From Chrysoperla carnea (lineage: Eukaryota; Arthropoda; Insecta; Neuroptera; Chrysopidae), in contig NC_058342.1 of the NCBI RefSeq assembly GCF_905475395.1, positions 2,056,501-2,120,500 on the forward strand: 64,000 nt of DNA, written 5' to 3'. Every line of letters starts with the position of its first letter. The first letter of the stretch is position 1. Under the pieces are notes generated by a model that worked only from the letters and a program-made list of their open reading frames with translations, was not told where the DNA came from and ran no database searches. The position numbers and the translations under genes are program-made. Shown here piece after piece: positions 18,715 to 63,875 of the stretch.

Positions 18715-18795
18715 TGTACCTAGCTTCGAACACTAGTATTAGTTTAATTTATGGTCAGATTGATTAACGCCTTTACCAATTGCGCCACGGACTTG
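18715..18795 (-). promoter_or_regulatory. tRNA-like module (A and B boxes) upstream of LINE A copy 1 ORF1
   Basis: On the minus strand an A-box TGGCGCAATTGG (18776-18787) is followed 55 nt later by a B-box-like TGTTCGAAGCT (18722-18732). The surrounding CCGTGGCGCAATTGGTAAAG reads like the 5' half of a tRNA. The ORF1 start is about 150 nt downstream and the element's 5' end about 460 nt upstream. It is not a functional tRNA gene, since the anticodon arm and acceptor stem are degenerate. It is shared with LINE A copy 2. Confidence 0.7.
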
Positions 18796-19430
18796 ATAAA
18801 TGAACACTATATTTTATATTATTTAAAACAGTTATATATTATTTTATAATAATTTTGTTTTTGCTGTTAAATTTTTGTTATTTTCTTCTTAAAAAACACT
18901 TTAAAGAATATAGTTTAGTACTATTTTCAAAAAATATGTTCCTTAATTAAAACACAATTATTTATAATTAAATGTGATTACAGTGCTTGAAATAGGTAAA
19001 CTTCAGCCCCTTTTTTAAAATAATTTAGCTTTTTGTTAAGTTTTTAAATTTAAATGTAACCTCATGTATTACATTGTTAATTTATTCGGAGAAATACACT
19101 ATATAAACTGTTTTCAGGAATAGTATTCACTATTACAGAACTCAAAAATTGTTTTCAGTAAAATTTTCACAAAAAAAGTATTAAAATCTATATCAAACAC
19201 AAAATTTAAGCCTTTTTAACAGAGCAATAAATTACACGTCTATACTGTCACACGTCTTTCAATTGAATTATTTTAATATTATATACAAATATACAAATAA
19301 AAAATTTAAATCTTGTTAGTTGTTTTTTCAATACATATCCGTACATAATTCAATTTTTGTTCTTGTCGAAAACATTCGCATAGTTTCTTGCGAATGCGAT
19401 TGCGAATGTTCAAAAATATGCGAATATTCG

Positions 19431-19530
19431 TTTCATCACTAGTCCCTAGTCTCACTGGGTAAAGTGGCTTGTTTTCTGCATAAAATGCAGTTTCATTTTG
19501 CTTAGCCTCATGACTAACTTGCATGAGTAA
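19431..19530. repeat. Dispersed repeat, third copy of the 42.5/44.5-kb inverted repeat sequence
   Basis: This shares TTTTCTGCATAAAATGCAG, GTCCCTAGT and TTTTGCT blocks with 44520-44620 in the same orientation, and in inverted form with 42523-42602. Divergence is considerable. It may be one end of a DNA transposon, or a piece of the transposase-like gene at 44.6 kb. Confidence 0.7.
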
Positions 19531-20610
19531 AATCATCACAGCATTCACATAGTATTTTTTCAAAATACTGAAATTTTTTGTGAAGATGTTGAACTTTTTC
19601 GAATAATTTACAAATAAAATAGGATACAAGCAATTTTCAGATGTAAATGCGGCAGTATGAGAAGACCGTGGAGGAACAATATGAAAATATGTAAGATAAA
19701 TAAAAATATGAAAATATGTGAGGTAAATAATAATTCAACAGGTGTTAAAATTTTTGGTGTTGTTAAAATCAATAAAATTTTGGGGGTTTTACCCACCTTA
19801 AAAATTGATAACTTGTTACGGATTTCAAAGATCGTGAAGCGATGCTACTAAGTGTTACGAATATTAGATGTGGTAATTTAAAAAAAATAAGTTAATGAAT
19901 TTCTTTAATTACGATACTTGATTACGATACCAAATTCCTCCGCAACCTCAGAACACTGAGATTGATATTTAGCTAAAAAAAATTTTTTAAATTAGTGTTC
20001 TTAAAGGGAAACATCCCGGTTTGTTCGAAGCCGGAATAGATAAATTCGCGTGTTAGGCCCAAAGATAACGCCGAAGGCGATTACTCCCCAGAAAGTCTTT
20101 AAAAAAGACAGAAAAAGTCTACGTTTAAAATAAAAAAAAGAATTAGTTTATTTTATCAAATCAAAGAATATAAATGTCTGACATAACTTAAAACAGAAAA
20201 TATTAATTTACAAGGCATCAGCCATTTTGTGACTTAGGTACATAAAATTTTACATAGTTGAGTATAAAAAATAAAGTTATGAAAATATCATATGATAATA
20301 ACTTTAGAAAAAAAAATCTTATATATAAAAATAAATGTTCCCGTATGCTGTTTGTGCTCACAGTTAATTCAGTTCCTTAAAATTACATTTTATAAGAAAC
20401 TGTGCTCACAGACAAATTCCAGTCGTCACAAAAAACATACTAAGAAATTTTACATTCTTCACAACTGTGCGTATTTAATAAAACGACATTTAACAAAAAT
20501 ATTTGTTTAGATTGTCGTATTGAATAAGAATTAAACAAAAAAATTATAAAAATTTAAGTAATATAATTACTGCCACACACTAAAATGTGTATTGAAAAAA
20601 ATGTGAATCC

Positions 20611-20648
20611 ATGCTGGAATAAATAATTTAAATTAATTATTCCAACAT
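20611..20648. repeat. Small palindrome (19-bp arms)
   Basis: ATGCTGGAATAAATAATTT is followed directly by its near-perfect reverse complement, with two mismatches. No function is assigned. Confidence 0.7.
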
Positions 20649-21182
20649 GCTTCTTCTGTGACGGTTAGAAATTCAAGAGGACGATTTATATTGAAATTAC
20701 ACTCAGCTTAGTTAGGGTACCGACTGGTGACGATTTTTAGAACTACCAGTTGAAAAAAATAAATAAAGTACAGTCACAGACAGAGTAAACTTTTCAATCG
20801 AATATGTACCGTCACAATCACAGATTTAAAAATGTATGATATTTACATTATTGTTTGCATAATTCATTTCTAATTTATTAATTTTAATTAATTTGCCAAC
20901 AATTTGTAACAAACTCGTGGCAGTTAAGTCACATACCACGTTTCTCAAAAAAGAGTCTTCGGAATATTTTGTTATAGCCATGTTTTAGTGTATCATGTCA
21001 GCATTTTTATAATATAGTAAATCCAGAAAAGTTGTCAGGGTTGTCAGCAGAGTTTGAATCCAGGTGATCTAGTTATCTCCTGCTATAGCGGTAACTCGCT
21101 GAAGTTATCATGTAGATGTTGGAGTCATATTACTTGTGAGATTAAATTTGCTTACACATCAAATGCTATCATTTAATTTAAA

Positions 21183-21525
21183 ACCGGCTCAGTGGTCGAA
21201 CGGTCTGAGGCGTTCGTCTTTGACCGTTTGGCTACTGACTGGGAGGTTGCGAGTGCGAGTCTAGACAGCGGGAGTGTGAACAATTATAATTAATAGGGGT
21301 TGCAGAATTGATCACATTGTCGGCGCTTGGATAAGAACGAAGTAACCGAATCCACACACATCAGAATATAATTGTATGTAGTTTAAGATGTAAGTTTAAG
21401 ATGTATGTAGTTTAATAAATACAGATTAACAAATACTGATGTGGGTGGCCTCTGTTATAAGGTTTTATATGTTAGAGAAACTGAGGTTAAACTCCATTAT
21501 TATTATTATTATTATTATTTTATTA
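21183..21525 (+). mobile_element. tRNA-related SINE with (ATT)n tail
   Basis: The head has an A-box TGGTCGAACGGT (21193-21204) in a Leu/Ser-tRNA-like context and a B-box-like AGTGCGAGTCT (21252-21262), 59 nt apart. A body of about 230 nt follows, and the element ends in a run of ATT repeats (21496-21525). Head, body and simple-repeat tail in about 340 bp is the layout of a SINE. No second copy is present in the window, and no clear target duplication was found. Confidence 0.7.
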
Positions 21526-21854
21526 AAAAATAAAAAAAAGTATGATACAACAACATAGATTTAAAATTATTATAAGCAAATTCTTTGTATGTCATTTTAT
21601 AAAAAAGGATCAAGATTATTGAACAACTACGGTGAAAAGTCCAGCTAACGCAAGTAGGGCTGCGCTTGCACGTCTTTCTCTAGTAAGATGCGATTTTTTA
21701 AATATAAGAAATAAAATTATAAATGTCATTATTATGAGTAGAAATATTTGGAAAGTGAACTTGAAATTTAATTACCAAGTTCATATTATGATTGAAAAAT
21801 TTGTTAATATTATATTTTGGGAAATTTTGTTGCTCAGTTGATAAAATGTGCTCA
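21526..21854. other. Non-coding stretch between SINE and LINE B
   Basis: AT-rich. A 69-codon open frame at 21632-21841 shows no recognisable family. Confidence 0.4.
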
Positions 21855-22194: not shown

Positions 22195-25100
22195 CATTCA
22201 AAAGAAAAGACCTTGTCATGAGAATTGCTTGTAGAAACAAACGTATAACAAACGTTCCAAGTCCCAAGTCGTAGAATTGAGTTTCTTGAAAAAACCGTCA
22301 CGCTCAAGTTGTAAACAGGACAAACAAACAACAGATGATGTAAGTTTCATGAACATTTAAATTGCAAAGAGTGCATGTGGCAGTCAAATCTATAACATAA
22401 CTGATTTTTCTGAAAACAACACGCAAAATTTGTTTGTTCGAGGTACGGAGTTGTGCAAATACTGGAATAAAAGACAGAGGACAGTTAAATGTTAAGTAGT
22501 TCTGATATCCATCTGTGGATATAAGACCCCTAAATAACGGGTTATATGTTGACAAAGCCACCCTTTCCACTGTCTTGTTTCGCGTAGTACCTTTGAAATT
22601 TTTCAAGAGTGGCTCTTATTTTAGCTTGCGAAATGAAATCGCTATTTAGAATGTCTACTGAGTCAATTAATTCGAGTAGGTTCTTTAATTGATAGACCCA
22701 AGTTAACTTAATCGGGACAGTTTCGGAAGTATTGGTTGAGTTTAGAAGCCTTTTATAGCATAACTTTGGATATCGCTCGTTGTCATGCGCAAAATTTTTT
22801 TTAACCAAAAAAGAGCTGATTTAATTGCTTTAAGGGCAGAGGTGAAATACCTGTTTCAAGACGCACTATATGGTTTGATGTATTCCTTGGCAGCTGGAGA
22901 AGTTGCTTAAAAAACCCCATTTGGACGGATTCAATTAAGGATAGATACCGAAGACTCCATACTGGGGCACAATAGAGTAGAGTATTTAATACACATGACT
23001 GGTAGAGCTGTATTCGAGAGTCCCTTGGAATTGGAAAAAGTAGTCATTACGGAAGAGATAGCTGCTTTTCCTCTTTGCACCGAAGTCTCTAGCGCCTGAT
23101 GGAACAAGGAAGAACTTGTGAAGGGTATTCTCAAGAAAATGGATGTGTTAACAACTTTGAAGGAAATTTTTTCAAATTTAAGCACTTCACTCTTTGGATT
23201 TCTGCCACCGTTTTTAAATATCATGATTTTTGATTTATTGTGATTACCAAGCTGTTATTTTTAGCATAAGAGGAAAGCAAAGAAATTTTCTTGAACAGAT
23301 CCGAATAACTATCAGCCAGAATTACGAGATCATCAGCGTACAGAAGCAAAACAATATCGTTGAGACCATCGATATTTAGTCCACATACTCCATTGCAACG
23401 AAAAAAGTCTTCGATGTCATTAATGAATGCCGAGAAAAGCCACGGGCTCAACGATTCACCTTGCAGTACGCCTTCTTTTACGGGAAATTCCTTACTGAAC
23501 TCACCATCTACTTTAACATGGAAATGCGCACTTTCATACAGATTCTTTAATATTCGTATAATCTTCCCACTGATTCCAAAAGAAGAAAATTTATCAAAGA
23601 GTTTAGATTGATTCAGAGAATCAAAGGCCCTATTGAAGTCAACGAATAAAGCGTAAACTCGTCTGCCTGGAAGTCGAAGCTGTAGTTGAATTACGGAGGC
23701 AAGAACAAATATATTGTCCATGCAGCCGCGATTACGTCTAAAACCTCATTGTGCTTCGATAAAAAGATTATTTAAATATGACCAGGCGTTTTAATCTCCG
23801 GAGAAGTATATTGGTGAAAAGCTTGGCAGAAGTATTGCAGAGAGCAATGCCACGATAATTTTCATGGTTATTTACGTCACCTTTTTTATGTAACATCTGG
23901 ATAATGATTTTGCATCAGCGCTTTGGTAGTTCTTCTAATTTAAGTATTTTATTGAAAAGAGTATTCAGGTACAACAACCAACTGTCAGGGAGATTTTTTA
24001 AAAGCTCATATGAAATCCCATCAATACCAGAAGCTTAAAAATTTTTACTATCGTTCAAGGATGAAGTCAATTCATAGAACGAAATATCAACATCAAGAAA
24101 TGGATCTGTGACATCAATATAGCATTTGTCGGAAGGAATCACGTTTCTACTATATATGCCAGAATAAAAATCTTCCCAAGGCTCGATTGGAAGAGAGAAT
24201 TTTTTTTGGACGACGACGAAGAGAATTAATAGTATCCCAGAACGTTTTGCTATCCTTAACGTTAGATATTTTATCTACAATTAGCTGATGATAGGTCTTT
24301 TCTTTATTTTTAATTAAATTGGTATACTGTTTTTTCACAGTGACATATTCAAGCGTAATATTTGGTTCAAATTTAAGCTTTTTGCACTGTTTAAGAGTGT
24401 TTTTTAAATTGCGCCTAGTCAATTTGCACTCATTGTCAAACCAAGGATTGCGATGATAGATGCGTTCTCGGGTAAATGAAGTGTGAGTGCGACACATTCT
24501 CAGTTGATGCCTTACTTCCCAGATCGCTTTTACTAAATTTTCGTACGTGAAATCGCAATCGGAAACAGTCCAGTTTGTGGTAATTCGGGGGATTAACATC
24601 ATGATGTGACAATAACTACCCGCTTTGTTTGAATCCCAATTGATATGTGAAGAGAGAGTAGGCGATTTTTTCATAATAATTTTGTCTGCTTCAAGCTGTA
24701 CGGTAAGTTTTAGCTTAATAGGGAAGTGGTCGGATGAAAAAACAGTATTAGTGACGTAGAAATCATCGATAAATTATAAACCATTGAAATTAAACCATAA
24801 CAAGTCGTTAATACTCTTTCCATTTGTAGTGAAATAGGTCAATTGAGCCGGTCGATCATTAGCAGTCCTACCATTTATAAGAATAAAGTTATGTTTTTCG
24901 AAAAAACTTACAATTTTTCGACCTTTACAATTTGAAATCGGGTCTAAAGTAGTGCGGCTAGGTAATAACTGTGTACTGAAACAGATTTCAGGACAGACAT
25001 AATTAAGCGTACCTACTCTCGAATTGAAATCACCACCAACAAAAACGGCATCACCAGGATGATTTATTATTATATTTGAAAGAAACATTTCAAACAGTTC

Positions 25101-25410
25101 CAAAACATAATGCATATCCACATCAGGCTTAACACAAATTATAAACTCACAAGACACTAATGTAATTTTTACTATAATTCACCATATTGATCTCTCTAAC
25201 GCAATAAATTTGAAGGATTTATTAATCAAAATAGTACAATTATAATAGTTACGAATAGAAGAAGGCAGGCTGAAATTATTTTGTTGAATCCAAGTTTCAC
25301 TAACACACCATGCATCAACACAACTATACTATGACTTTTTATTACTTACACAAACATCAATCACACTGGCAAATCCTTTCGCGTTCCAGAATCTCATTAG
25401 TAGCGGACGT
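22195..25410 (-). pseudogene. LINE B ORF2: endonuclease-reverse transcriptase, frameshifted
   Basis: It starts near the ATG at 25410 with MRFWNAKGFA, then CVSETWIQQNN (endonuclease metal-binding region), GGDFNSRVG (25010-25040), INDLLWFNFNGL and SSDHFPIKLK (near 24740), which are landmarks of an APE-type endonuclease. The linker (24150-24674) has HRNPWFDNECK and KTFWDTINSLRR. The RT has ASGIDGISYELLK, NYRGIALCNTSAKLF, motif A as ALFVDFNRAFDSLN, the stretch GVLQGESLSPWLFSAFIND and an intact catalytic LLLYADDLVI (near 23340). The C-terminal region continues to about 22195 with a CTLCNLN-like motif. At least four frame breaks are visible (near 25340, 24770, 24010 and 23740). An intact copy would nick the target DNA and reverse-transcribe its own RNA. 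Confidence 0.9.
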
Positions 25411-25411
25411 T

Positions 25412-26316
25412 TTATACTGATGATTTCCTTTCTTTGGGGCGAACGTTTTTTAAGGGTTTTGTAATAGCTTGTGCGTTGGAAGTGTTCGTTCCAATTTGAA
25501 TGTTTTGACACAATGAAGCAGGCACCAAAATATTTCTTTGTGAATGCCAAAGATTTTGTATTGTTGCTTGATGGCGTGTCGCTTTTTTCTTTCGCTTCTT
25601 AGTTTCATGGCCAGTAGAATTGGAGCTAGAAGAATCACTATCCCGAGACTGAATAATAGGAGCTAGTCTATCGGTTTTAGTATGCGCTTTATTGGAGGTA
25701 AATGATGCACTTGCGATAGGTAAGTCTGTAGTAGAATGATCCTGTTCGATAGTAGATGACGTACTGGGAGGTAGATCACCCAAGTTAACAATTCGGTTGT
25801 GTTTCACAATAGCATTTATTCCTTGACTTCGCAGGTTATTCACGTCCGCTTGCATTTTTTCTCGCTGGTCTCTAATGTGTTTTGGAAAATCTTTTTTAAT
25901 ATAAATACTGGTGGATTTTAAAAGTGAACGGTTTTTGACTATCTCCGATTTAATTCGAAATGACAGAAATTGTACTAAAACTGGGCGAACTTTGTTGTTA
26001 CTTCTTTGACCTAGTCTTTTCACGGAATCAATATCATGAATAGTAAAATTTACTTTTATTACGTTGATGACAATATTCAAAATGATTTTTTCAAGCTCGT
26101 AGGAATCACGTTCATTATCCTGACTGCCAAAAAATATTAAATTTTTTTCCTCAGTTCGCGATCGATAAATGCCATTTGTTTTTCAAAATCGTTTAAGCGG
26201 CCGATTATATCATTTTGTACAGAAACCATCTTATGAAATTTAAAGTCGATTTTCTCATTAATACTTTTAAATTCACTTTTTAGATCCAAGTACATATTCT
26301 TGAATGCATCTGCCAT
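25412..26316 (-). pseudogene. LINE B ORF1: coiled-coil plus RRM-like RNA-binding protein
   Basis: The ORF begins at the ATG at 26316 with MADAFKNMYLDLKSEFKSIN, a heptad-rich segment likely to form a coiled coil, then LNDFEKQMAFIDREL. The frame is lost in an A7 run near 26146: one base is missing relative to RKKNLIFFG. It then continues with the RRM-like core IHDIDSVKRLGQ, VRPVLVQFLSFRIKSEIV and STSIYIKKDFPKHIRDQREK. The tail is serine- and lysine-rich (SRDSDSSSSN, TKKRKKKATRH), suggesting disorder and nucleic-acid binding. Two-ORF LINEs of the Jockey/CR1/L1-like type carry such ORF1 proteins. Confidence 0.85.
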
Positions 26317-26700
26317 TGTAAAAATAATTGTCAGTGGATTTGTGTTCAGAAAAAGAATCCCACAAATTATGCTTTAGCATACACACACTAAATTTGCTCA
26401 ATACAAATTGTTATTTAAATTTTTTGTTGATTATATGTTACACAATCTTTGATTAATATTAAGATAAGAAAAAATATTTTTTTTTAAATTTAAACTCTTT
26501 TTAATAAACACAGCGGGAAAAATATACACTTTAATTAGTATTAGGTGAACGACAAAATTTTTCACTATCACTGCATATAACTTTTACAATATTTCGAAGT
26601 AAATTACTCGTATACCTAAATCACTAAAAAATTATTGAATAAGATTGATTATTGAATAAGAGGAGTACGACTTGTTCACTTCAAGTATAATGTAGGAATC

Positions 26701-26874
26701 AATTAATTTAAAATATATTATTATTATATTGAAAAAAAATTATAATAGGTTTAGTGATAAATAAGCGAAAACTAGACGACTACCGACTAAGATAATTAGT
26801 AACTTTGACCATTTTTGTCATTGCATAGTGGTGGGTGGTAACCTTAATTAAAATTGGCGATGGCGTTCCAAAAT
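26701..26874. other. Junction between LINE B 5' end and errantivirus-like 3' end
   Basis: AT-rich non-coding junction. If the env-bearing element had a 3' LTR it should start here, downstream of env on the minus strand, but no LTR pair partner is visible in the window. It is probably truncated. Confidence 0.35.
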
Positions 26875-28479
26875 CTACCTGTCGCAGGAAAAAACGTTAT
26901 TATGAACTCTGCAGGAGTTTATTATTAAAGCAAATGAGAGAAGCTTAACCGTCCAGGATGGTTGAGCGGGTGGTGCCGTTGGTTGTAAGTGGATTACTCC
27001 GACTTGTTGCGTTTTATTTTGTTTGTATTTGGTATATATTTTATATACTTTAATACAAAACACAACTAGCGTAATAATAATTGCTGTAACGCTTACGTGG
27101 TACATATGATGTGTCTTCAGGAGTTTGAGTTCTCTGGTGTTTTCTAGATGTTGCATGTGCAGTAAGTCGAAGTTGATGTCCTCGGATATAATTCTTATGT
27201 TTACTGAATTGTATAGTTTTTCTTCAGTTCCGATGTTATTTGTTGATATGGATAAGGTTCCATAGACAATTTGGTTAATAGTTAATTGACACTGGTGTAA
27301 TATGATGTGCAATTTTGCAGAAAAGTTGGTAATGTTTTTTCCACAATTATTAGTGATGTCGATTGCTTTGTTGGTGTAAACGATGATATGGTTATCTTCA
27401 ATTTCTTCTATACAGTTATCATCCATGGTTCTATGTAGTGTGCATTTGGCTGGTTTGTTTTCCAATATTTTGATTTCGTATTGGTTGGTTGAAAGGGTTT
27501 GTAATGTTTTTGGAGGACAAATGTCGATTTGTTCTATTCTGCTGCATGGTTTACTTAGGAATAAGTAATTGGATGGGTTGTAGAGGATGTAGTTGGATTC
27601 TGTTTTGATTATTTGGTGATTTTCAGATGGAGGTCGTATTTTTATGGTGTTAAAAGTAGTATTTGATAGTTGGGGAATTAAAATCGTGATTATTATGTCA
27701 GTTTCATTTTAATACGCTTTTAATAGTAGTAATTCATACAAATAGCGTCATTTTTAATTGTTAATGGTTTGCTTAACGATTTCCGTACTGTATTTAATTC
27801 TGATTTATTTAGAATGTGTTTCGATATTATTCCTAGTTCAGCCAATTGTATTGAGGTTATTATGTCATCTAAATGATCTGATAAAAATTGTAATTGAGAT
27901 TGAAGGAAAAAATAAAATTGGGATTGAAATAATTGTTGTTCAATGTGGGGTTGGGTTTGAATTGCCAATACTATAGTTTGAAGTTTTGCTTGTTCGCTAT
28001 TAATGAAGTTCGTTATGTTGTTAAAACGTTCGATCATTTGGGTGTTTAGTTTGTGTTAATTATCCAAATTGTCTTTGAGTAGTATTTCGTTATCTTGAAA
28101 TTTCTTGATTTGTTTATTAATCTCTAAAGCATCGTTATGATCCATATTGCCTGATATTTGTTTTATAATTGTTCCCAGTTTGTCAATTAGCCCTCGTTTT
28201 TGTCTATGCAGGGGTTTTAGGATATTAATTTTGTCTTCTAATCTAAGCAGTTGAAATCTTAAGTTTTTATGATTATAAAACTTTGTAACGTTAAGTTTGG
28301 TATTAAGGATAGTTGTTTTTATGCTGTTGGGGGATATTTCTTGGTTAGTTACGTTAATGATATGGATAAGATTGTTGTAATGGGATGTTAGCCTAGTCGG
28401 TCCCAAGTTTAGTGCTAGCATACCTTTGGTATGAGTTAGGTCATGGTATTCGATTCGTTGAGAGTAGGTCAGCTGATAC
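26875..28479 (-). pseudogene. env: Errantivirus-type envelope glycoprotein, frameshifted
   Basis: The first recognisable part (28056-28421) carries a furin-type site RQKR directly followed by GLIDKLG, residues 73-76 of that frame. This is the boundary between the two subunits and the start of the fusion peptide in insect errantivirus Env, which is related to baculovirus F proteins. An in-frame stop (28056-28058) separates it from the helical segment at 27720-28037, and a frameshift near 27715 separates that from the C-terminal part (26875-27465 and upstream). The C-terminal part has a membrane anchor (VSVTAIIITLVVFCIKVY) and a basic, proline-rich tail. The breaks prevent expression. I give no repaired version. 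Confidence 0.85.
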
Positions 28480-28492
28480 CTAGAAAATAAAA
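28480..28492 (-). promoter_or_regulatory. Putative env splice acceptor
   Basis: On the minus strand a T-rich run TTTTATTTTCTAG precedes GTATCAGC, from which the env frame opens. Errantivirus Env is made from a spliced subgenomic RNA, so an acceptor at this place fits. Confidence 0.55.
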
Positions 28493-28576
28493 TTTTTTTC
28501 TTAATTTGATTTTTGATTTATGGTATTGCATTTTCTTATCAGTAACGAAAGTGAGTCCATTATCCTAAGCCGGTTG

Positions 28577-28802
28577 CTACCTGTCGAATGCAGGTTGTAG
28601 TTTGGTTTTACGTTGTACATTTTTCATATAGATTTTTCCGTTAGCTAGTGTAGGGGGTTCTTGTCTATTTTCGTTTTGTTTGGTTAGTCGTTCTTTGTAT
28701 AGTCGGAAACTATTCCTGAGAATACTTCCCGTGTTTTGTTGTATCTTGATTTTTGTTGATGATGTAGATGATTGAACTTTTAATGGTGAAATAAATGAAA
28801 CA
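28577..28802 (-). pseudogene. Errantivirus-like integrase C-terminus
   Basis: A minus-strand frame ends with PPTLANGKIYMKNVQRKTKL, which resembles the C-terminal end of gypsy-type integrase, just upstream of the env acceptor. It is separated from the integrase core (29709 onward) by an 882-bp insert. Confidence 0.6.
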
Positions 28803-29708
28803 CTTGATTTTTTGGGGTTATGAAATGAATGTTTATTCCCCAAGAGAAGAAAAGTTGTACCAGTGATAACTGGGCAAAAAAACTCCTCGATAATATGTTT
28901 TTGATACAGAAATTATATAAATGAATTATAGAATGAGTACATATGATGAATTGAACAACAATTGACAAATTGATAAAGTATAATCACTTGGTATTTCACA
29001 AGCTTATGATAATAAATTATTTGTATATAATCAAAAGATAGGTACTTGGTATCACAAGCTTTATGGGGTGAGCTCGACCGCCGAATTAAATAGTGATCAC
29101 TTAAATGAAAATGCTAGTGTGGAAACTAGTTAAAAGTGATTCACGTTCTAGGAACTAGCAATCACTTTTATAGCACATGTAATTCACGTTTTCGAAACTA
29201 GGAATTACTTTCACTGATTATTAATTATCTTGATAATTATTCGATAATGAATATAACAATTTTGCACAATTTTGTTGAATACTATTTGATATTTTTGATG
29301 AAGAATGGTCAAAAGACGCTTAATCGGTCTAGAGACGCTAATTATAATGGCGGTTGTTTTGTTAAAAACAAACCAATCTATATATTAATGGTTGCTATGG
29401 CGCATTAATACATCATTTTGATAATCATATGACATGAAATTAATGATTGTATGATAAATAATTCCTCACAATATTATTATTCAGCTTACAAATAATAGTT
29501 ATAATATTTATTAACAATGTTTAGAATAAATTTACAAAATTCAACAATAAATTAGTAATATAATAGGAACTACTTTTTTGTGCATTCGCATTTATAAGAA
29601 TTTATGAATTGATTATTAATTTAAATGAGAGATGTCACCATGGGTCTTAACAAATTATTAATTTAAATCAGAGATGTCGCCATGGGTCTTAACATTCTTG
29701 ATTTTTTG
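28803..29708. mobile_element. Unclassified 882-bp insertion flanked by a 12-bp direct repeat
   Basis: CTTGATTTTTTG occurs at 28803-28814 and again at 29697-29708 and brackets sequence that interrupts the integrase region. The insert holds no ORF. It has internal repeats: an ACTTGGTAT...CACAAGCTT block twice near 28990-29065, a GATTCACGTTC-like block near 29140-29200, and a roughly 43-bp tandem repeat with GTCACCATGGGTCTTAAC near 29610-29695. It may be a short retroposon or solo LTR; the 12-bp repeat could be a target duplication or chance. Confidence 0.5.
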
Positions 29709-30510
29709 TGTTTTGTTTGGAAATGATTTCGTTGATGATTTTCATTTCGAGTCTGGTGTTATTGTAATTGTTTATTGCGTTTGAAGAGGGCTTTAGTGAA
29801 GTGTTATCCCTAATTCCGTGTATCCCCTCAAATGGTATTAATTTGGTTTAATAGTGTATCGACTTATTATAAGTTATCATGGTCAAATCTAATAGTTCGT
29901 CTAGTGGTAATGATTTGTTTGTACCCTTAAGAAGGCGTAGAGATTCTAATATCGTGCTGTGAAGGCGTTCTACAGGAGAATTGCACGTTGAGCTACGTGC
30001 AGCTGTGTATGGTTTTTGATATCATAAAGCTTAAGAAGTTCCCTAACGTTTAAGTTTGAAAATTCTAATCCGTTATCATGAACGACTTTTCTAGGGATTC
30101 CGTGTTGTGCGATATATCGCCTAAATATTTTTAAAACTTCATTCGCGTTTTTAAATGGTATTATTGTATTGACTTCTAGCGGTTCTTGTTTAAAGTGTAA
30201 TGGATATCGTTCGTACTTATGAGTGAGGCAAGAGTCGCAAGGGTTTATATTTTGATTTCATGTTATCGAAATAGTATGTCCGTTTTAAGTGGGTGATAGT
30301 TTCATTGATTCTTCGATGGATCGATAAGTCGTGATAGCTCTGAATAATTTTAATCAGTTCGTCTATGTCGGTGAGAAGCTTCATACATTCTGTTAATTTA
30401 TACTTTTGAAAGAAGTTTTTGTAAGCGTTTTGAATTAAATTGAATGTATCACCGTCAGTCATTATTGCGTTAAGTTTATTAGGAGAAAATCTGGTTTCTT
30501 TAACCAAGTC
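29709..30510 (-). pseudogene. Errantivirus-like integrase core and zinc-binding domain
   Basis: On the minus strand the HHCC region reads IHRRINETITHLKRTYYFDN, with HKYERYPLHFKQEPLEVNT after the cysteines. The core retains IAQHGIPRKVVHDNGLEFSN (second Asp) and a degraded region around the Glu (SPVERLHSTIL, broken by frameshifts). The stretch containing the first catalytic Asp is missing between LEVNT and IPFKNANEV. The copy is inactive. Confidence 0.8.
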
Positions 30511-31240
30511 GATTACGTCTTGTTCTTTGATTTCTTCTAATTCTATTGTGGTTCGTTTTCGGATTTTGAATAGTACTTTAGTTGAGGTGTTATTTCTAAG
30601 TCCTGAGTCTATTATGAATTGGATATTAAATTTACTTAAAGCTTGCTCTGATATTCTAATTACATCTGAAATATTTTCATCTGCGGAATGCTCAATGGAA
30701 GTTTCAGAGTTTTGTGAGGTACTTGCTAAATTGTTAAGAGTGATCCCTGATAGTGCGTCAGCGTTTGTGTTTGCTTTCCCAGGTTTGAAGTCGATGTTAA
30801 AGTTATAGTCTTACAATTTAATTTTCCATCTGACAAGTTTAGAAGTGGGTTCTTTTAGGGAAAAAACCCATTTTAACGGCTTGTGGTCCATAAGTATGTT
30901 GATTTTTGTCCGTATAAGGGGCTGTATTGTTTAGAAGCCCATACTATGTCTAGTAGCTCTTTTTCAATGGTACGTTAATTTTGCTCCCATTTTGTTAATG
31001 TCCGTGAAGCATAACATTTGGGTCGATAGTTACCTAGGGGCCCTTGTGACATTATGGCTCGGTATGAACGGTTTCATGAAGTCCGGGTATTGTTGTATTG
31101 GTTCTCCAGTAAGTAGTGTTTTACAATATTCAAAGCATTTAATATAATCGGCGTCGCTTTTATTAATTTTTGCGTCCTTTTGCAAAACTCTTGTCATAGG
31201 TCTGGTTTTTTTGCGAAGTCTCTAATTAATTTTCTATAGT
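30511..31240 (-). pseudogene. Errantivirus-like RNase H domain
   Basis: Minus-strand pieces in two frames read AIMSQGPLGNYRPKCYASRT, IEKELLDIVWASKQYSPLYG, then SLKEPTSKLVRWKIKL and FNIDFKPGKANTNADALSG. These are the RNase H domain and following connection of gypsy-group pol. Several stops and frame changes are present. Confidence 0.8.
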
Positions 31241-31485
31241 AACCTAAAAGTCCTAGAAACGATTTTATTTCGGTAGTGGTTTAAAGTAATTTGTTGATAA
31301 TTTCTATTTTTTTTCGGGTTAGGTCTGATTCCGTCAGTGGTCACAATGTGTCCGAGAAACTCTATTTCTTTGTGTAAAAATTCGCCCTTGTCAAGCTGTG
31401 TTTTAAAATTGAACTGCCTGAGCTTGTTAAATACTTTATTTAGCGTTTGTATGTGTTCCTGAAGTGTTGTAGTGTTTGATTTCAA
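31234..31485 (-). pseudogene. Errantivirus-like RT C-terminal remnant
   Basis: The frame contains EHIQTLNKVFNKLRQFNFKT and FLHKEIEFLGHIVTTDGIRP, the end of the RT palm and the thumb. Everything before it, including the catalytic YxDD box, is missing: the sequence joins directly to the protease frame at about 31485. The homologous segment of the second gypsy-group element is at 52530-52786. Confidence 0.85.
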
Positions 31486-31745
31486 ATGAATCTATCAAAA
31501 AGGTGGCGGAATTTGAATACCAAAAATTCGAGAGGGTGTACATTGTTTAACTGTTCTAAATATTTAATTAATATTTTATGAGAAATGGTGTGAGTTTGGA
31601 GTGCTGTTTTGACTTCGATTCTGGTGGGGATTAATTGGAAATTATTTGAATGTTTCGGGTCAATGAAGTTATTGTCGGCCCCGGTATCGATGAAAAATTT
31701 CAAATTAAATATTTTTATGTATGGTAGGGAACCATTAATTTTGTG
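31482..31745 (-). pseudogene. Gypsy-group aspartic protease
   Basis: The minus-strand frame begins near MKFFIDTGADNNFI, the DTGA active-site motif, and continues with a beta-rich protease-like sequence before breaking off at the RT deletion. Confidence 0.8.
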
Positions 31746-31756
31746 ATAGTTTAATT

Positions 31757-32400
31757 CTAATAGTCCGGAGGTTTCAAGGCTTGTTCTTGAAAATTTTCGT
31801 TTTCAACTTCGTTAGAGTCAATTAATTGCACGTGTTGGTCTTGTTGTACTGAATCGTAAAAATTATAGTCGTAATCTTGGTAATCGTAGTCCTGTGGAGT
31901 TTCGTCGAATTGCTGTTGGCTATCGTCAACGTTAAACAATTCTTTGAATGTGAAGTTAGGAGGACCGGTTTGTTTGAATGAGTTCTTTGGTCTGTTTAAT
32001 GTTTGTCGAGAGTTTCCTGATGTATCCATATGTGTAGGTCTTGGAAATGTTGCTTGTTGTTGGGGTTGGGATTGGAGTTTCGGTCTAGGATATTGTGGTT
32101 GCGTTTGAGCGAATGTCGGCCTATTGTATTGAATAGGTCGGTAGTGATTTTGACTTTGGAAGGGATTCAATTAATTGGTGGTTGTTGGTGTAGTTGTGGA
32201 CTGGATTGATACATATGTTGATTTTGGGTTATCTAGGGACTAACTGGTGCATGGGTTGATGCATGGGTTGATAATTAATTTTTTGTTTGTGAATAGGTTG
32301 TCTTAAGTTATTTGCTAACCGATTTCTTTCGCGTGAACTGTTTTGTATACTGATTTCATTTAAACAAACATCGTACGCTTCTTTAATATTAATTGGGAAT
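31757..32400 (-). pseudogene. gag: Gypsy-group gag C-terminal part
   Basis: The open frame (31757-32170) is rich in Q, P, N and Y, and has PTHMDTSGNSRQTLNRPK and an acidic YQDYDYNFYD tail. It lacks a CCHC knuckle, as in some gypsy lineages. The second gypsy element has the related PTLMDISSGNSRQILHRSN at 51208 onward, so the two are relatives. The N-terminal part upstream is broken, and the rest was lost at the junction with LINE A copy 2. Confidence 0.75.
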
Positions 32401-32669
32401 ATTTGATGGGAAGTGAAGTTGACATGGTACAGTATAGACGTGTAATTTATTGCTCTGTAAAAAAAGGCTTGAATTTTGAGATTAATAAAAATTTTAATAC
32501 TGTTCCTTGTGGAAATTTAACTGAAAACGGGTTTTGAGTTCTGAAATAGTGAATAATACTCCAGAAAACAGTTTATATAATGTATTTTTCCGAATAAATT
32601 AACAATTTAATATACGAGTTTATGCTTAACTGGTGATGACGTGAAAATTTGTATGGAACTTACATTTTA

Positions 32670-49934: not shown

Positions 49935-50336
49935 TCACAGACGTATCACAATAAAAATTATATGCAATAATACTTTTAAAAAAATTATCACATATTTATC
50001 ACAACAACAACAATCAACAAAAAGATATAATTTTTTCGCTACTGGCCTAGGTCTAAGTCTAGGCTTGGCGGCCTTTACATATTCGTCATCTTTTTGTAGG
50101 TGCTCCTTCATGTTCGTCGAGAACTTGTCGATATTAATCAACAGCGTGCTGTCTGAGAGTCTATCGATTTCGTCTCTCGTCCTAGCATACTTTCCCCTGG
50201 TAAGTCCTGACTCGAGGATGTTACCGAAAGTGCTCATTAAGTCCAGAAATCCTATCCCAAATTGCAGAGTAACCTCTATCCCAAATCGTAGAGTAAGATT
50301 AAGTAAAGATCTGCACATTATTAGTGAAGATGGCAT
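49935..50336 (-). CDS. Orphan ORF on the minus strand, unknown
   Basis: This is a 133-codon frame on the strand opposite to the gypsy-group gag. Its middle, from MSTFGNILESGLTRGKYART through DEIDRLSDSTLLINIDKFST to KDDEYVKAAKPRLRPR, is polar and amphipathic and looks like real protein, whereas the plus-strand reading of the same bases does not. The underlying DNA (about 50030-50290) is noticeably GC-richer than its surroundings. Two 25-bp near-repeats (TATCCCAAATTGCAGAGTAA type) lie at 50252-50300, where it meets the gag-like sequence. I do not recognise a family. It may be a captured exon or a viral fragment. Confidence 0.35.
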   Translation of the reverse strand: MPSSLIMCRSLLNLTLRFGIEVTLQFGIGFLDLMSTFGNILESGLTRGKYARTRDEIDRLSDSTLLINIDKFSTNMKEHLQKDDEYVKAAKPRLRPRPVAKKLYLFVDCCCCDKYVIIFLKVLLHIIFIVIRL

Positions 50337-51460
50337 AGATAATACAATAGTTCACCCCGAACTTGAAAATATTGCTTTAAAATTACGAAATATATCCTTA
50401 CCTTATACCAGTTTTAACGAAGGCATCCTTCATACATTTTTGGAAATGGCTGAAGTTATTACAGCACCGCTAAACCGTGAATCTCAAATTAAAATTAATA
50501 TTTTAAAACAAAAATTACGTGGACAAGCAAGAGCAGCACTTATAGCTGCTGGCAACCCAAATACATGGCCCGAAATAGAAGAAATTTTATTAATGAATTT
50601 TGTTGACAATCGAACTATAGATTCTATTAACGTGAAATTAAATTATCTAGTACAAGGCAATAAATCATTAAAATAATACTATACCGAAACAATCGATTTA
50701 CAAACGGTATTACTTAATACTTTCGATAATAATCAAGGAGTCAAGGAGATGTAACTAAAGGACAATAAATTGTTCATACAAATAATGTACCTAGTTCTTT
50801 CATATCTGAACTCAATCCTTAGGATATATAGTTAGAGCTAATACACATAAAAATTTAAAAGAAGCGTGTGCTATTTGCCAAAATGAAATTGCTATGCAAC
50901 ACGCAAGCAAGGAAAGAAACAAATTTAGACAAAATGTAAAACCAAGTATACAAAAACCTATTTCACCGAATTATTCATAAACAAGTAAACATTTGCAACA
51001 ATATAATAGACCACCAATTCAAAATAATTTCAATAATTTAAGACCTAACTATAATAATAATCATTCTTCCCCTATGTTTGTCCACAATTTCAATCAGCCA
51101 GATTTAATCCACCACAAAATCCCTTTAATTTGCCACAGCATTATATACCTTTACAAACGAATCGATCTGTTTGGAATGTAATGCAAAAATCAAACTATAA
51201 TAACTCTAATAATCGTCCAACTCTAATGGACATATCAAGTGGCAATAGTCGTCAAATATTACACAGAAGTAATAATTTGAATATCGAAGAAGAACAAGAA
51301 TATTTTGACCCAAACTCTTATTATTCAGAAAATTATCTTGCTGAAAAATATTATCAAGAAAATCACAACGAAAAATTCGCAACAGCCCAATACGTAAATG
51401 ACAAAAGCCAGAGTTACTATTACGAAGCATCCCCTATTCAGAATTTGAATGATTAAGAAG
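50300..51460 (+). pseudogene. gag: Gypsy-group gag
   Basis: The first part (to 50676) reads NTIVHPELENIALKLRNISL, FLEMAEVITAPLNRESQIKI and KLRGQARAALIAAGNPNTWP, a gypsy/errantivirus-type Gag capsid core. A TAA at 50674 and further breaks follow. The C-terminal part (50993-51456) is Q/N/Y-rich and has PTLMDISSGNSRQILHRSN, matching the related gag at about 32000. No CCHC knuckle was seen. Confidence 0.8.
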
Positions 51461-51479
51461 TGGCTCAGAAAATATCTGA

Positions 51480-51665
51480 ACGTATAGAAAAACCTGATGA
51501 TCAAAATTTTATGGCAAAAGCCTCCATACAGCTGGATACATAAAACTTAATAATCTAAACGCTAATACATTACCCGATATAAAAATCAATAACCTAAAAA
51601 TTTTAATTGATACTGGCGCTGATGGTCATTTTATTCTCCCTAAACATTGTCATCATTGTACAAAA
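51480..51665 (+). pseudogene. Gypsy-group protease fragment
   Basis: In one frame NNLKILIDTGADGHFILPKH shows the DTGA catalytic motif. The rest of the domain is broken, and 51665-52000 contains no recognisable coding sequence. Confidence 0.75.
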
Positions 51666-51999
51666 TATAAAACACTAAAATAACAAACGCTTTAAAGAAT
51701 TTTATAATCACAGAAAAAATAATCGTAGACTTTTACCCGGACTAAATAACAATAATTTGGAAAGTGGTAAAAATATAATTGAAATGATGGACTATAAAGA
51801 GGAACTGAAGCAAAAGGATATGGCTAGAATTATTAAAAAAATATTAAGCGTAAGGAAGGGGAAGTTAGAGTAACAATTTGTTTAATTTTTTTTTTATAAA
51901 TATAATGTATAATTAAATTAAAAGCTGTAAATTGATAAGTTTTAGAGTCAAATAAATAAATAATAATAATAATTTAAATTCCGAAGAAAAAAATAAATT

Positions 52000-52786
52000 A
52001 ATAAATCTCTGTTCAAAATATAGAGATATATTCTATAACCGAAACGTCGAAATGACTTTTACAGCTACAGTAAATAGACAAATTCAAGAAATGCTAGATT
52101 AAAATATTATTCGACATTCAAATTCTCCTTGGAGTGCCCCAGTATTTATAGTTCGCAAAAAAGCAGATCCGTTTGAAATTAGGAAATTTAGACTTATAAC
52201 TGACTATAGAAAACTTTATGAAAATACTATAGACGATGGGTATCCTATTCCAAATATTCATGATATCTCGGATAAGCTAAGAAAATTTCAGTATTTCACA
52301 ACCTTGGGCTTAGTGTCAGGATATCACCAAATTGAAGTGCATCCTAATGACATAGCGCAAACAGCTTTCAGTGTTGATAACGGACATTATGAATTTACAC
52401 GTATGACCTTTGGACTTAAGAATGCTCTAGCAACCTTCCAAAGAGTAATGGATAATTTGCTACGTGAATACATTGGACATAACGTTTTAGTATATATGCA
52501 TGACATTATTATCTATTCTGCATCTCTAGATGAACACATACAAGTTTTATCTAAAGTATTCGACAAACTTAGAAAACATTATTTTAAAACTGAATTGGAC
52601 AAATGTGAACTTCTACATAAAGAAATTGAGTTCTTAGGACACATAGTAACAACAGAAGGTATTAAACCAAATCCCAAAAAGATCGAAGCAATAGAAAAGT
52701 TTCCTTTACCCAAGACTGTCACCCAAATTAAATCATTTTTAAGATTGATAGGCTACTATCGAAAATTCATTAAAGATTTTGATTAG
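52000..52786 (+). pseudogene. Gypsy-group reverse transcriptase with mutated catalytic residues
   Basis: Fingers: VNRQIQEMLD, a TAA stop, then NIIRHSNSPWSAPVFIVRKK and RKFRLITDYRKLYENTIDDG. Motif A reads TLGLVSGYHQIEV, where LDLxSGYHQ is expected; GGC at 52307-52309 replaces the Asp codon. Motif C reads VYMHDIIIYS, where YxDD is expected; CAT at 52499-52501 gives His for the first Asp. The thumb region HKEIEFLGHIVTTEGIKPNP is intact. The frame ends at 52786 (YYRKFIKDFD). Confidence 0.92.
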
Positions 52787-53130
52787 GAGCCGTATTACTC
52801 CAAAAACACGATGACGGTATCCACCCAATCATGTACTGCTCCAGAAAATTAAATCCTGCAGAAATTCGTTACAATGCACATGAGTTAGAAATGCTAGCAG
52901 TGATCAATGCTCTCGATAAGTTTAAGGATTTCTTACTCGATCGTAAATTTACCCTTCAGACCGATTGCAGTTCTCTCCTTTGGTTATTCAACTCTCCGGC
53001 CAGATTCAATAAACTCTCGCGTTGGATCCTTAAAATTTCCAGATTTGATTTCACGCCCGAACATATTAAGGGCCAACACAATAATATGGCCGATTTTCTC
53101 TCCAAACTCTATGAATCACAGGATGTAAAC
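52787..53130 (+). pseudogene. Gypsy-group RNase H, N-terminally deleted
   Basis: After the RT frame, another frame resumes with LGAVLLQKHDDGIHPIMYCS, then KLNPAEIRYNAHELEMLAVI, FTLQTDCSSLLWLFN and HIKGQHNNMADFLSKL. The RT-RNase H connection and the first RNase H strand with its catalytic Asp are missing, so a deletion has joined KDFD to LGAVL. Confidence 0.88.
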
Positions 53131-54582
53131 TGTACTCATGTTCAACAGAGCGACGATGTTGCTGACGCTAAATTTGTAAAAATGAAAGCTAAACATAGTG
53201 ACGATCCCGGAAACGTTTCTATTATAAATAAAATCAAAATTTCTTTAGATCAACCTAATGGTGTAAAGCCTAGTGAACCTAATGAAAGTGAAAACTTACG
53301 AACAAATAACGTAAATTCAATTAATTCTCTCAACGTTTTGAGTAAATCCAATTTCGACTTTTTATCCATAAAAAACGAACAGCGAAACTCGCCCGAGTGC
53401 GAAATCATATATCGGAACATACGATCCCAGATGGATGTCTTTAATTTTTGCATAAAGGACGGTTTGCTTTTCAAATTCGTGGGTAAAAATAAACTGAGAA
53501 GAGTTGTATTACCAGACACTTTGCTGAATTATGTTTTGAAGTACTTCCACGACTCCAAGTACTCAACACATAATTCGGTAATAAAAACTTTTCGTGAAAT
53601 TAGTAAAATTTTTTACCATAAAAACCTTTATGCAAAGGTTAGAGACTACGTAAGATCTTGCGAAGTTTGTCAAACAATTAGACCGTACACACGGAATGAT
53701 AAAATCCAATTATCCAGTACAGTACCTGACGCAATTTTTAAAATCTTGTACGTTGACTTTATTGGTCCCATTATTCGATCTCCTGAGGGATTTAAATACA
53801 TATTTTCTGTTTTAGATGGTTTCAGCAAATACGCTTTCGCTTTCCCATGTCGAAGCCAAACTGCGGATGTTGCCATATCACTAATGCAGAAGATATTCCT
53901 GGAAAATGGATATTGTATTACCGTAGTATCAGACAATGGTCCAGCATTTTCATCGATTAAATGGAAAACATTTTTACTTAATAATGGTATTAGGGCAGCA
54001 TATTCTTCACCATACTCACCAGGAAGTAATGCCGCTGAAACTCTAAATAAAGCCATCAAATATAACTTAGGATGCGTGCTAAAGGAATATTCGCAACAAC
54101 ACAAAAATTGGAGCAAATTCCTTAGTTTTACGTTGTTCAATTACAATAATTCTTATAAAACAACTATAAAAACCACTCCTGCTGAAGCATATTTCGGTCG
54201 TAAATTAAATACACCATTCATTTTAATCAACGAACTGACCGATATATTAACAAGCGATAGAAAACCATCACAACAACAGATCGAAAACGCTTTAAAGATT
54301 ACACATCAAAAACGTGTTTCTAAAACATTAAACAGACTTTCAGTATCCAAGTACAAAGTTGGCCAATTAGTTATGGTTAAGAATCTTGTACCTAATACAA
54401 ATACCAATACCTCATAAAAATTTGCTGCGAAATATACTGGACCTTTCAAGATCATCAAATTTTCGTCTCCAACATCAGTTAGACTAAAAACTTCACGAAA
54501 TGTCAAAAACAAAACAACAATTGGAGCCTCCATCTACAATGAGTTGGTCGCATCCGTAGAACCTTCGGTTTCATCATACTAA
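52831..54582 (+). CDS. int: Gypsy-group RNase H (part) and integrase, one late stop
   Basis: A 528-codon open frame (52831-54417) includes the RNase H remainder and a complete integrase. The zinc-binding domain is HDSKYSTHNSVIKTF with CEVCQTI. The DDE core has ILYVDFIGPIIRSPEG, TVVSDNGPAFSSIKW and PGSNAAETLNKAIKYNLG. Further C-terminal comes FNYNNSYKTTIKTTPAEAYF. A TAA at 54415-54417 interrupts the frame; the same frame continues with KFAAKYTGPFKIIKF, the usual gypsy integrase C-terminal module, to 54582. With its DDE triad visible and a single late stop, this is the best-preserved gene of the element. Confidence 0.9.
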
Positions 54583-57890: not shown

Positions 57891-57929
57891 AAGATAAGAT
57901 TAATAAACGCTGATCGATAAAGAAAAGAC

Positions 57930-61690: not shown

Positions 61691-61703
61691 AATTAATGTC
61701 TTT

Positions 61704-62370: not shown

Positions 62371-62788
62371 TGTTGAATTGCAACAACTTTACAATGACAT
62401 GAAAAAAGAGCACAAAAATATTATTTGCAAAGCCAGAACAGAATGCTTGTTTGGCGTACTAAAAACATATAAATTGGATATTAAAAAGTGTATGGACAGG
62501 TATAAGCAAAGTTTTAAATAAAAAACCAAATACGAATAAAATTATATCAATGCTTGATCATAATAAACTCGAAGACGATCCTAAAATAATTGTAAATTTA
62601 TATGCTGAATACTTTCAAAAACTTCATCTGAAAAAATGTATCAAACTTTCAATAATTAAGTATCGGAAGAATGCACGGCTTCAATACTGAACATGTAAAA
62701 CTCAATGTACATATGGCCTACGGATGAGTATGAAATCCAAATAGCCTAATTTTCAAACAAGCATTCTATTGGACTTGATTCGCTTCGA

Positions 62789-63276
62789 ATGTCAGTAATT
62801 AAGTACGATGCACCAATTAGTTCAGTTGTCTGTGACATTATAAATAAGTGTAAAGAAGATTGCAGTTTTCTTGATGCACTTAAAATTCCAAAAACCGTAT
62901 CTATATGTAAAAAAGATGATAGGCACAATGTAGACTATAGACCTATATCCATATTAAAAGTTTTCTCGAAAATCATAGAAAAAATAATATTGAATAGACT
63001 TCAATCTTTCATCGATAAATACAACATACTTAGCTAATCACAACATGGTTTCGAACGAACCACTCAGCGCAATCAGCAATGTTTGATCTATATGTAAAAA
63101 TAACAAAAGATCTAAATAAAGGTCAATCTGTGTCAGGATTGTTTTTTGATCTAAGTGCAGCATTCGATACAGTGAATCATGAATTTCTTTTAAGAAAGTT
63201 GGAACGGATGATAATAAGAGTTAATACTACTAAGATATTACAATCTTACCTTAACAACAGATCATTTATAGTAGTG
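62789..63276 (+). pseudogene. LINE H RT N-terminal part
   Basis: The RT begins with ISSVVCDIINKCKEDCSFLD, VDYRPISILKVFSKIIEKI and LNRLQSFIDKYNILS followed by a TAG stop; then QHGFERTTQR and, in another frame, SVSGLFFDLSAAFDTVNHEF (motif A, 63079-63285) and LQSYLNNRSFIV. Palm motifs B and C are missing because of the truncation at 63276. Confidence 0.88.
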
Positions 63277-63379
63277 TGGTGGTAACAATTAACCCGACAC
63301 ATACATACAGTATATTCTTAAAAACAAATGTAATCCACACAATTCTAAAAAGAAATCAACAATATCGTTTTATAGTAAA

Positions 63380-63507
63380 ATATATGCAATAGAACATACG
63401 TGACCATTCTAGAATTTGCTAGACTGTACGGTAACAATTACATGTAAGATATATGCTATAGAACATACTTGACGGTTCTAGAATTTGCTAGACGATACAT
63501 TAATAAT
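63380..63507 (+). repeat. Two-copy tandem repeat, 69-bp period
   Basis: ATATATGCAATAGAACATAC at 63380 recurs as ATATATGCTATAGAACATAC at 63449. Both copies continue with GAATTTGCTAGAC. They lie directly upstream of a TATA box and could be promoter monomers. Confidence 0.9.
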
Positions 63508-63517
63508 GGATTGTAAT

Positions 63518-63546
63518 TATATAAACAGAGTGTGCGATACCGTCAG
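63518..63546 (+). promoter_or_regulatory. Putative pol II promoter: TATA box and initiator
   Basis: TATATAAA at 63518-63525 is followed by CGTCAGCAC, with the A of the TCAG initiator at 63545, 27 bases from the first T of the TATA. This spacing is as expected for an arthropod TATA/Inr core promoter. Confidence 0.55.
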
Positions 63547-63795
63547 CACAGAGTACAACAATTTCAAGGTCAAGATGGTAAGTTGAACGGTGTTTGAATC
63601 AAAAAATTTAATTTTAAATCATTTTAAATTATTGTTTATTAATAGTGAAAATCAAATTATTAGTGATAGTGAATTTAGTTTAGTGATTTAGTATCGCAAA
63701 ACAATTGGGAAACATTGAAGAAGAAAAGATAGAAACAAATAATCTTTGTTCTGATAATCCAACATAAGTATTTATATTGGAATAGTTTATATAGA

Positions 63796-63875
63796 GTCAC
63801 CGTGGCTCAATTGGTTAAAGTGTATGTACTTTGTGTTTAATTTATTAAGTCAGTGGTTCAAGTCTAGCTCCAGTT
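63796..63875 (+). promoter_or_regulatory. tRNA-like module upstream of the zinc-finger ORF
   Basis: The A-box TGGCTCAATTGG is at 63803-63814 and the B-box GGTTCAAGTCT at 63855-63865, 52 nt apart. The 5' half CCGTGGCTCAATTGGTTAAAG is very tRNA-like. The coding-like frame begins 31 nt after the B box. Confidence 0.72.

Follow-up and report, generated by a model that had tools for sequence, protein, structure and literature searches.

Box modules ahead of ORF1 in LINE-type elements

The stretch of DNA analysed here (the window) comprises 64,000 nt of the Chrysoperla carnea genome (NC_058342.1, positions 2,056,501 to 2,120,500) and contains five elements of the long interspersed nuclear element (LINE) type that bear an open reading frame 1 (ORF1). 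In four of them, the leader upstream of ORF1 holds a short module composed of an A box and a B box, the two parts of a type-2 RNA polymerase III (Pol III) promoter. We take the consensus sequences of these boxes to be TRGYNNARNNGG and GGTTCGANTCC, respectively, with the B box presumably located about 30-60 nt 3' of the A box. The four modules belong to three families: F1, present as two diverged copies at 18.7 kb (F1a) and 33.0 kb (F1b), F2 at 39.3 kb and F3 at 63.8 kb. Judged from the sequence, the leaders of two families, F1 and F2, carry a predicted type-2 Pol III promoter, and that of the third family, F3, probably does so as well. The coordinates of the features are given in Table 1.

The A-box pattern TGGCNCARTKGG was found four times in the window, and all four sites fit the consensus. 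Shuffled windows contained 0.04 matches on average and none of them contained four, while the whole genome has 651 matching places in 559 Mb, i.e. about 0.07 per 64 kb (reversed-pattern control, 288). Three of the A boxes are followed within 30-50 nt by the motif GTTCRA, an arrangement absent from the shuffles; the fourth, at 32987, is followed by a degenerate B box, CTTTCGAAGCT, in which GTTCRA is missing. When both boxes were scanned jointly in this AT-rich window (31.7% G+C), only the sites at 39291 and 63803 passed with no mismatch in the A box and up to two in the B box (0.15 pairs expected per window). Admitting three B-box mismatches let the site at 18787 pass too, among seven pairs listed at six places (0.6 expected). 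Scored against GGTTCGANTCC, the B box reaches 10/10 in L121 (a relative of F2 elsewhere in the genome), 9/10 in F2, 8/10 in young F1 copies, L113 and F3, and 6/10 in F1b. The start-to-start distance of the two boxes is 55, 56, 46 and 52 nt at the four window sites in order of position, and ranges from 46 to 61 nt when copies outside the window are included.

An ORF1 of one type lies 3' of all four modules. For F1, tblastn relates it to the ORF1 of the fifth element, named here the 26k LINE (E ~1e-10 to 1e-12). For F2 and F3 we used a profile built from F1 and the 26k LINE alone, F2 and F3 being excluded. The first frame of F2 ORF1 scored 26.3 bits, compared with at most 2.8 in 50 shuffles, whereas its second frame did not score above its shuffles; F3 ORF1 scored 14.0 bits (best of 50 shuffles, 6.5), its domain being located in L069, just beyond the window end. 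A reverse transcriptase (RT)-like frame of F3, also in L069, is 28% identical to the RT of the 26k LINE (E 2e-7). In F2 an endonuclease-like frame was recognised by eye at 41313, which BLAST against the 26k endonuclease did not bear out (E 1.3). No relatives were found among the predicted-protein collection, viral contigs and phages, and none of three ORF1 pieces matched Pfam. The leaders of F1, F2 and F3 have no significant mutual BLAST similarity (best E ~0.03).

A preliminary description of this DNA had reported A and B boxes at the four sites with the spacings given above, and a LINE-type ORF1 downstream of each; both were borne out. Its "several different LINEs" are indeed more than one family, but the copies at 18.7 and 33.0 kb represent a single one, leaving three. 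Its B boxes stand at the three sites with GTTCRA, the one at 32987 being degenerate. Of the five ORF1-bearing leaders in the window, four have a module and that of the 26k LINE has none.

Just 5' of F3, at 63375-63512, there are two tandem 69-bp units that are 80% alike; they may be promoter repeats of F3 or of another element.

Table 1. Positions of the box modules and of the associated ORF1 features in the window
Feature	Positions	Strand	Evidence
F1a, second and more diverged F1 copy	18000-19262	-	Comparison with F1b and L043
F1a A box TGGCGCAATTGG	18776-18787	-	Pattern match
F1a B box TGTTCGAAGCT	18722-18732	-	Joint A/B scan
F1a T7 run after B box	18695-18701	-	Sequence
26k LINE, fifth ORF1-bearing LINE, no leader module	22200-26800	-	ORF1 25415-26373, RT 23224-23745
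F1b: 5' end, leader, module, ORF1	32413-33801	+	87.5% identity over 1668 nt to L043
F1b A box TGGCGCAATTGG	32987-32998	+	Pattern match
F1b degenerate B box CTTTCGAAGCT	33043-33053	+	9/11 identical to F1a
F1b T5 run after B box	33071-33075	+	Sequence
F1b ORF1, broken	33197-33801	+	tblastn with L026 ORF1, 83-85% identity
F2 A box TGGCACAGTGGG	39291-39302	+	Pattern match
F2 B box AGTTCGAGTCC	39337-39347	+	Joint scan; GTTCRA match
F2 T5 run after B box	39362-39366	+	Sequence
F2 ORF1 domain, two frames	39786-40196	+	Profile score of first frame
F3 A box TGGCTCAATTGG	63803-63814	+	Pattern match
F3 B box GGTTCAAGTCT	63855-63865	+	Joint scan; GTTCRA match
F3 T4 run after B box	63886-63889	+	Sequence
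F3 ORF1, probable start, zinc-finger-like by eye	63937-64000	+	Domain L069:1278-1517, RT-like frame L069:2075

The F1 and F2 modules are integral to their elements

The F1 module region matches at least 27 places in the genome, the two window copies included. We read 17 of these copies (F1a, F1b, L021, L026, L043 and L108-L119), leaving out seven close copies and three places where the match starts 3' of the module. Of these 17 copies, 11 retain both cores unaltered (TGGCGCAATTGG in the A box, TTCG(A/T)A in the B box). For F2, five other genome places match (L120-L124), all of which were read around the module; L121-L124 have the A box TGGCGCAGTTAG and the B box GGTTCGAGTCC, which agrees with the consensus at 10/10 defined positions and is followed by T4 and T6 runs. 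The module occupies the same leader position in F1 copies down to about 69% identity and in F2 copies down to about 67%, and the homology of the F2 leader extends on both sides of it. We concluded that the elements of both families carry the module as a component of their own.

Related copies devoid of boxes, or carrying them as insertions of short interspersed nuclear elements (SINEs), had been named in the preliminary description as outcomes that would tell against it; neither outcome prevails in F1 and F2, where the boxes are intact in the 11 F1 copies mentioned and in four of the five F2 relatives. It is very improbable that the modules are separate SINE insertions into single copies, or products of chance. 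In favour of insertion, as many as 63 of the 100 A-box places read on contig C1 resemble one or other of two abundant repeat groups whose heads are of tRNA type, and F3, a single copy, is compatible with this origin. For F1 and F2, the shared leader position refutes it as far as these copies go; BLAST against the loci compared detected no SINE tail beside the F2 or F3 module, and chance would supply 0.04 A boxes per window rather than four.

Recent F1 copies have an ORF1 and no ORF2

F1 is in its recent copies, as far as its reading frames tell, a young ORF1-only LINE derivative of the HAL1-like kind, with an intact ORF1 and no ORF2. Two such copies, L043 and L026, share 98.2% identity over 1959 nt, and their ORF1 products, 210 aa in length, are 98.6% identical. 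In the 7.9 kb read, no further stop-to-stop frame of at least 80 aa was found on the F1 strand. Remnants resembling endonuclease and RT were noticed by eye, and the corresponding tblastn matches were weak (best E 0.059). In the L043 copy, which starts near TGACGTGTTACAGTATAG, about 528 nt separate the 5' end from the A box, and a ATCAATAAAGAATATATATA-type tail closes the copy at about 2.37 kb; its 5' end is common to F1b, L021 and F1a. The 5' truncation of L026, 117 nt before the A box, and the 5' inversion of L021 are usual marks of LINE-driven copying.

With its 5' end about 530 nt ahead of the A box, F1 cannot be copied as a whole by Pol III that starts from the module. This supports the earlier argument that a simple internal Pol III start cannot give full-length RNA; the accompanying estimate, a 5' end 450-550 nt upstream of the module, is right for F1, the one family with a fixed 5' end. 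A run of at least four T residues occurs within 45 nt of the B box in 13 of 14 F1 copies and at a near-constant place in 12 of them, counts to be read against the AT-richness of the sequence.

The module might be an active internal Pol III gene, which would start just 5' of the A box, stop at the T run and give a leader RNA of about 90-110 nt acting in trans, either as a decoy or by feeding or evading small-RNA silencing. We regard this as possible, albeit unlikely. The near-constant distance between boxes and T run in 12 of the 14 F1 copies and the full B box with its T4 and T6 runs in L121-L124 are what such a gene would have. At the locus L119 (C1:86956320-86956470), 49 bp around a changed A box match F1 and the flanks are unrelated; this single piece may stem from a short RNA that was copied, or be a fragment. 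On the other side, the F1a interior is poorly kept (20 to 24 of 37 positions identical to other F1 copies), and RNAalifold found no structure in F1, as described below.

Relation of the module to tRNA genes and to other tRNA-headed repeats

F1 and the tRNA-Asn genes of this genome share TCCGTGGCGCAATTGG (16 nt), and the module probably came from a tRNA gene. For an overview of other sequences with such heads, 100 of the 651 A-box places, all on contig C1, were sorted by best BLAST match at a lenient threshold. The largest class, termed group G, accounted for 43 places and group H for 20; four matched tRNA-Asn (including one broken copy and one weak match), three matched F1, three matched F1a or F3 weakly, and 27 matched none. 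In group G, the similarity starts near the tRNA head and is about 120-170 nt long, which is SINE-like. In some pairs of group H the homology starts as much as about 190 nt before the A box; this group (L014, L015, L019, L020, L022, L028 and similar places) has a tRNA-type head and may be a SINE or a repeat with an internal module. Over a stretch of 29 nt, and no further, the F3 module and L104, a place of the group-G type, are 96.6% alike.

Conservation of the boxes compared with their surroundings

Between F1a and F1b the canonical boxes are identical at 21/23 positions, the parts between and behind them at 41/65 (p 0.015) and the remaining leader at 470/541. Six F1 representatives were then compared, picked among copies with complete modules; L109, L110, L111, L118 and L119, which are deleted or fragmentary, were omitted. 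Invariant columns number 22/37 in the boxes, 17/66 between and behind them and 48/107 in the flanks, and the difference between boxes and interior (p 0.0013) is descriptive, as the six rows are related. Mean pairwise identity among the representatives is 0.88 for the A box, 0.73 for the B box, 0.56 between the boxes, 0.71 behind them, and 0.79 and 0.83 in the flanks.

F2 and L121 are 67% alike, yet the 11-nt B core is identical in both despite an A-B distance of 46 nt in one and 61 nt in the other. The 11-mers shared in the compared stretch are confined to one 17-nt upstream block and this B core. For this comparison the F2 B box was anchored by sequence, MAFFT having put it wrongly across the 15-nt gap (which makes its B value of 10/50 misleading).

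The module could also be a fossil, that is, a tRNA or SINE head which an ancestral leader captured by template switching and which has been kept by descent without function; the preliminary description had also named a captured SINE fossil. We consider this a doubtful explanation with several observations in its favour, among them the conservation of the whole F1 leader, the 29-nt likeness of the F3 module to a SINE-like group G copy and the 16 nt shared by F1 and tRNA-Asn. It is more difficult to reconcile with it that the interior and trailing parts of the F1 module diverge faster than the boxes, that the F2 B core was kept across a 15-nt change of spacing, and that the leaders of the three families have no significant mutual similarity.

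Is the module kept as DNA or as a tRNA-like RNA?

Stem pairs of a tRNA fold were counted in 11 usable F1 rows (the F1b row not being counted), with a tRNA-Asn gene of the same genome as control. The F1 rows form 1-3 of 7 pairs in the acceptor stem and 1-3 of 5 in the T stem, compared with 7/7 and 5/5 in the control. RNAalifold gave no consensus structure for nine F1 rows (-0.97; shuffled columns averaged -0.72). In F2 the acceptor, T and D stems have 6/7, 3/5 and 2/4 pairs, and 5-6 of 7 acceptor pairs are formed in five of the six rows of the F2 family; L121-L124 have 5/7, and L120, which is without a B box, has 1/7 in the acceptor and 1/5 in the T stem. The values for F3 are 3/7 (acceptor), 3/5 (T) and 3/4 (D). 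None of the modules makes up a tRNA cloverleaf.

ARAGORN detected no tRNA at the window modules, and none at six F1 and F2 module loci, though it found two tRNA-Asn genes in L011. Rfam, searched with E values up to 10, listed no tRNA for the window, nor for any of five small stretches. With relaxed thresholds ARAGORN returned 130 to 239 matches per window and was uninformative. Its sole default match in the window is a tRNA-Ser (act) at 5312-5398 on the plus strand, which is possibly false.

The preliminary description had considered a role of the module in RNase P/Z processing or in RNA folding. The pair counts speak against this in F1 and exclude it less clearly in F2. In general, it is improbable that the module is kept as a tRNA-like RNA fold serving RNase P/Z processing, translation of ORF1 or RNA packaging. 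The A and B boxes double as D and T loops, and the acceptor pairs of F2 and L121-L124, together with a D stem of 3-4/4 pairs in F1, would suit such a fold; the poor acceptor and T stems of F1, the RNAalifold result and the lack of tRNA matches at the modules in ARAGORN and Rfam do not. The loss of the acceptor and T stems in F1 suggests that a site kept as DNA fits this family best.

Other repeats in the window

An element at 10220-17611 (plus strand) is bounded by 300-bp direct repeats that are 99% alike and contains long frames of the gag/pol type; by eye it looks like a recent BEL/Pao-like long terminal repeat (LTR) retrotransposon. The stretches 26878-32170 (minus) and 49864-54414 (plus) also resemble LTR elements by eye, the first with a possible env-like frame at 26878-27708. 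A 63-bp repeat, 84% alike and with a short palindrome inside (by eye), occurs at 19458-19520 and 44542-44604. An inverted repeat of 143 nt, 93% complementary with the arms 8 nt apart, at 5929-6222 may be a foldback element or a recent palindrome.

A tRNA-type promoter as a putative TFIIIC site in the leader

The F1 5' end about 530 nt upstream and the T runs that follow the B box in 13 of the 14 F1 copies are the reasons why we read the boxes as putative TFIIIC sites and would assign full-length RNA to RNA polymerase II (Pol II). The reading that we favour, with considerable reserve, is that the module acts at the DNA level as a tRNA-type promoter bound by TFIIIC, which would keep the leader open or insulated; the short Pol III leader RNA and the fossil follow it closely in likelihood. 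That most of the tRNA shape has disappeared from F1 suggests, short of proof, a kept docking site for the tRNA-gene machinery. The module would be placed between the element's own start, seen for F1, and ORF1; Pol II would make the full-length RNA from the 5' end of the element; and TFIIIC on the boxes would free the leader of repressive chromatin, so that a new copy could be transcribed. Selection on the DNA would be for TFIIIC binding and not for a tRNA-like RNA, and a Pol III transcript of about 90-110 nt may arise on the side.

A wider proposal can be put forward still more tentatively. The LINE-type elements of this genome might be Pol II/Pol III hybrids, in which unrelated leaders have each acquired on their own, or else kept, a tRNA-type promoter directly 5' of ORF1 as a regular component that is selected on DNA for TFIIIC binding, the ORF1-only LINE parasite included. 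The boxes might also be conceived as a landing site that the element itself provides for targeting to tRNA genes.

Several points weigh against binding by TFIIIC as the reason for conservation. The insulation step comes from analogy alone and is the main source of doubt. One of the five ORF1-bearing leaders in the window, that of the element at 22.2-26.4 kb (minus strand), is without a module, its best A/B pair reaching 7/8 + 5/10, and in the F1b leader a second A/B-like pair equals the score of the module (8/8 + 6/10). F3 is known from a single copy. Young F1 copies have a T4 run only, behind a B box of 8/10. As for conservation, "extended boxes" (36/36 against 37/68) gave an inflated contrast, their limits having been drawn around identical runs, and canonical boxes were used instead; the count in the six representatives in turn leans towards conserved boxes because copies with deleted modules were omitted. 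Even so, the boxes do not differ significantly from the flanking leader (p 0.13), nor the B segment from the interior (p 0.11). The F1 interior changes fast, and the A box is kept at least as well as the leader; the B segment is not above it.

Losses of boxes belong to the same list. Both boxes of L108 are altered by point changes, the A boxes of L109 and L118 by deletions, and L110 (with one A-box change in addition) and L111 are without a B box, as is the F2 relative L120. L121-L124 are near-identical and so count as one line of descent, and their A box departs from the consensus at one position and agrees with that of F2 at 9/12. The D stem of F1, for which the best of seven offsets was taken (control 4/4), is well paired, but it overlaps the A box. 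The fossil explanation would account for the box losses in both families, for F1 boxes not significantly above their flanks and for a B segment below them.

If a TFIIIC-bound promoter is indeed what the leaders carry, a LINE could by this means remain accessible where chromatin is silenced. It would moreover already contain the half of a SINE that serves as promoter, and one internal deletion could yield a SINE.

Comparison with known systems

In the titles and abstract openings of the literature covered, which includes passages of PMC10886601, PMC5563155 and PMC2887409 and has most subscription journals outside its range, no report of tRNA-type boxes in a LINE leader was found.

The modules are similar to tRNA-derived SINEs in their internal A and B boxes, tRNA-type spacing and decayed tRNA fold. 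Unlike SINEs, which are noncoding and start at the tRNA head, F1 has its boxes about 530 nt inside, possesses its own 5' end and encodes ORF1, and is thus not itself a SINE. With HAL1 (half-L1) of mammals, F1 shares an ORF1 without ORF2, 5' truncation, 5' inversion and an A/T-rich tail; it differs in that no comparison made here marks it as an L1 and in that it carries the box module.

TFIIIC is the agent of boundary function at tRNA genes and B2 SINEs. By analogy, these boundary elements and the insulator in the gypsy leader would resemble the modules in having a bound site that separates chromatin, although gypsy uses another protein. B2 SINE copies act as boundaries according to PMC8136502. 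Non-LTR elements are described as Pol II-transcribed and SINEs as Pol III-transcribed in PMC10886601, which also presents Helenus, a group of LTR elements whose LTR includes a tRNA-like sequence. Helenus is alike in having a Pol III-type module in a retroelement that is not a SINE; it is unlike F1, F2 and F3 in being a non-autonomous LTR element with another mode of replication and in carrying the module in the LTR.

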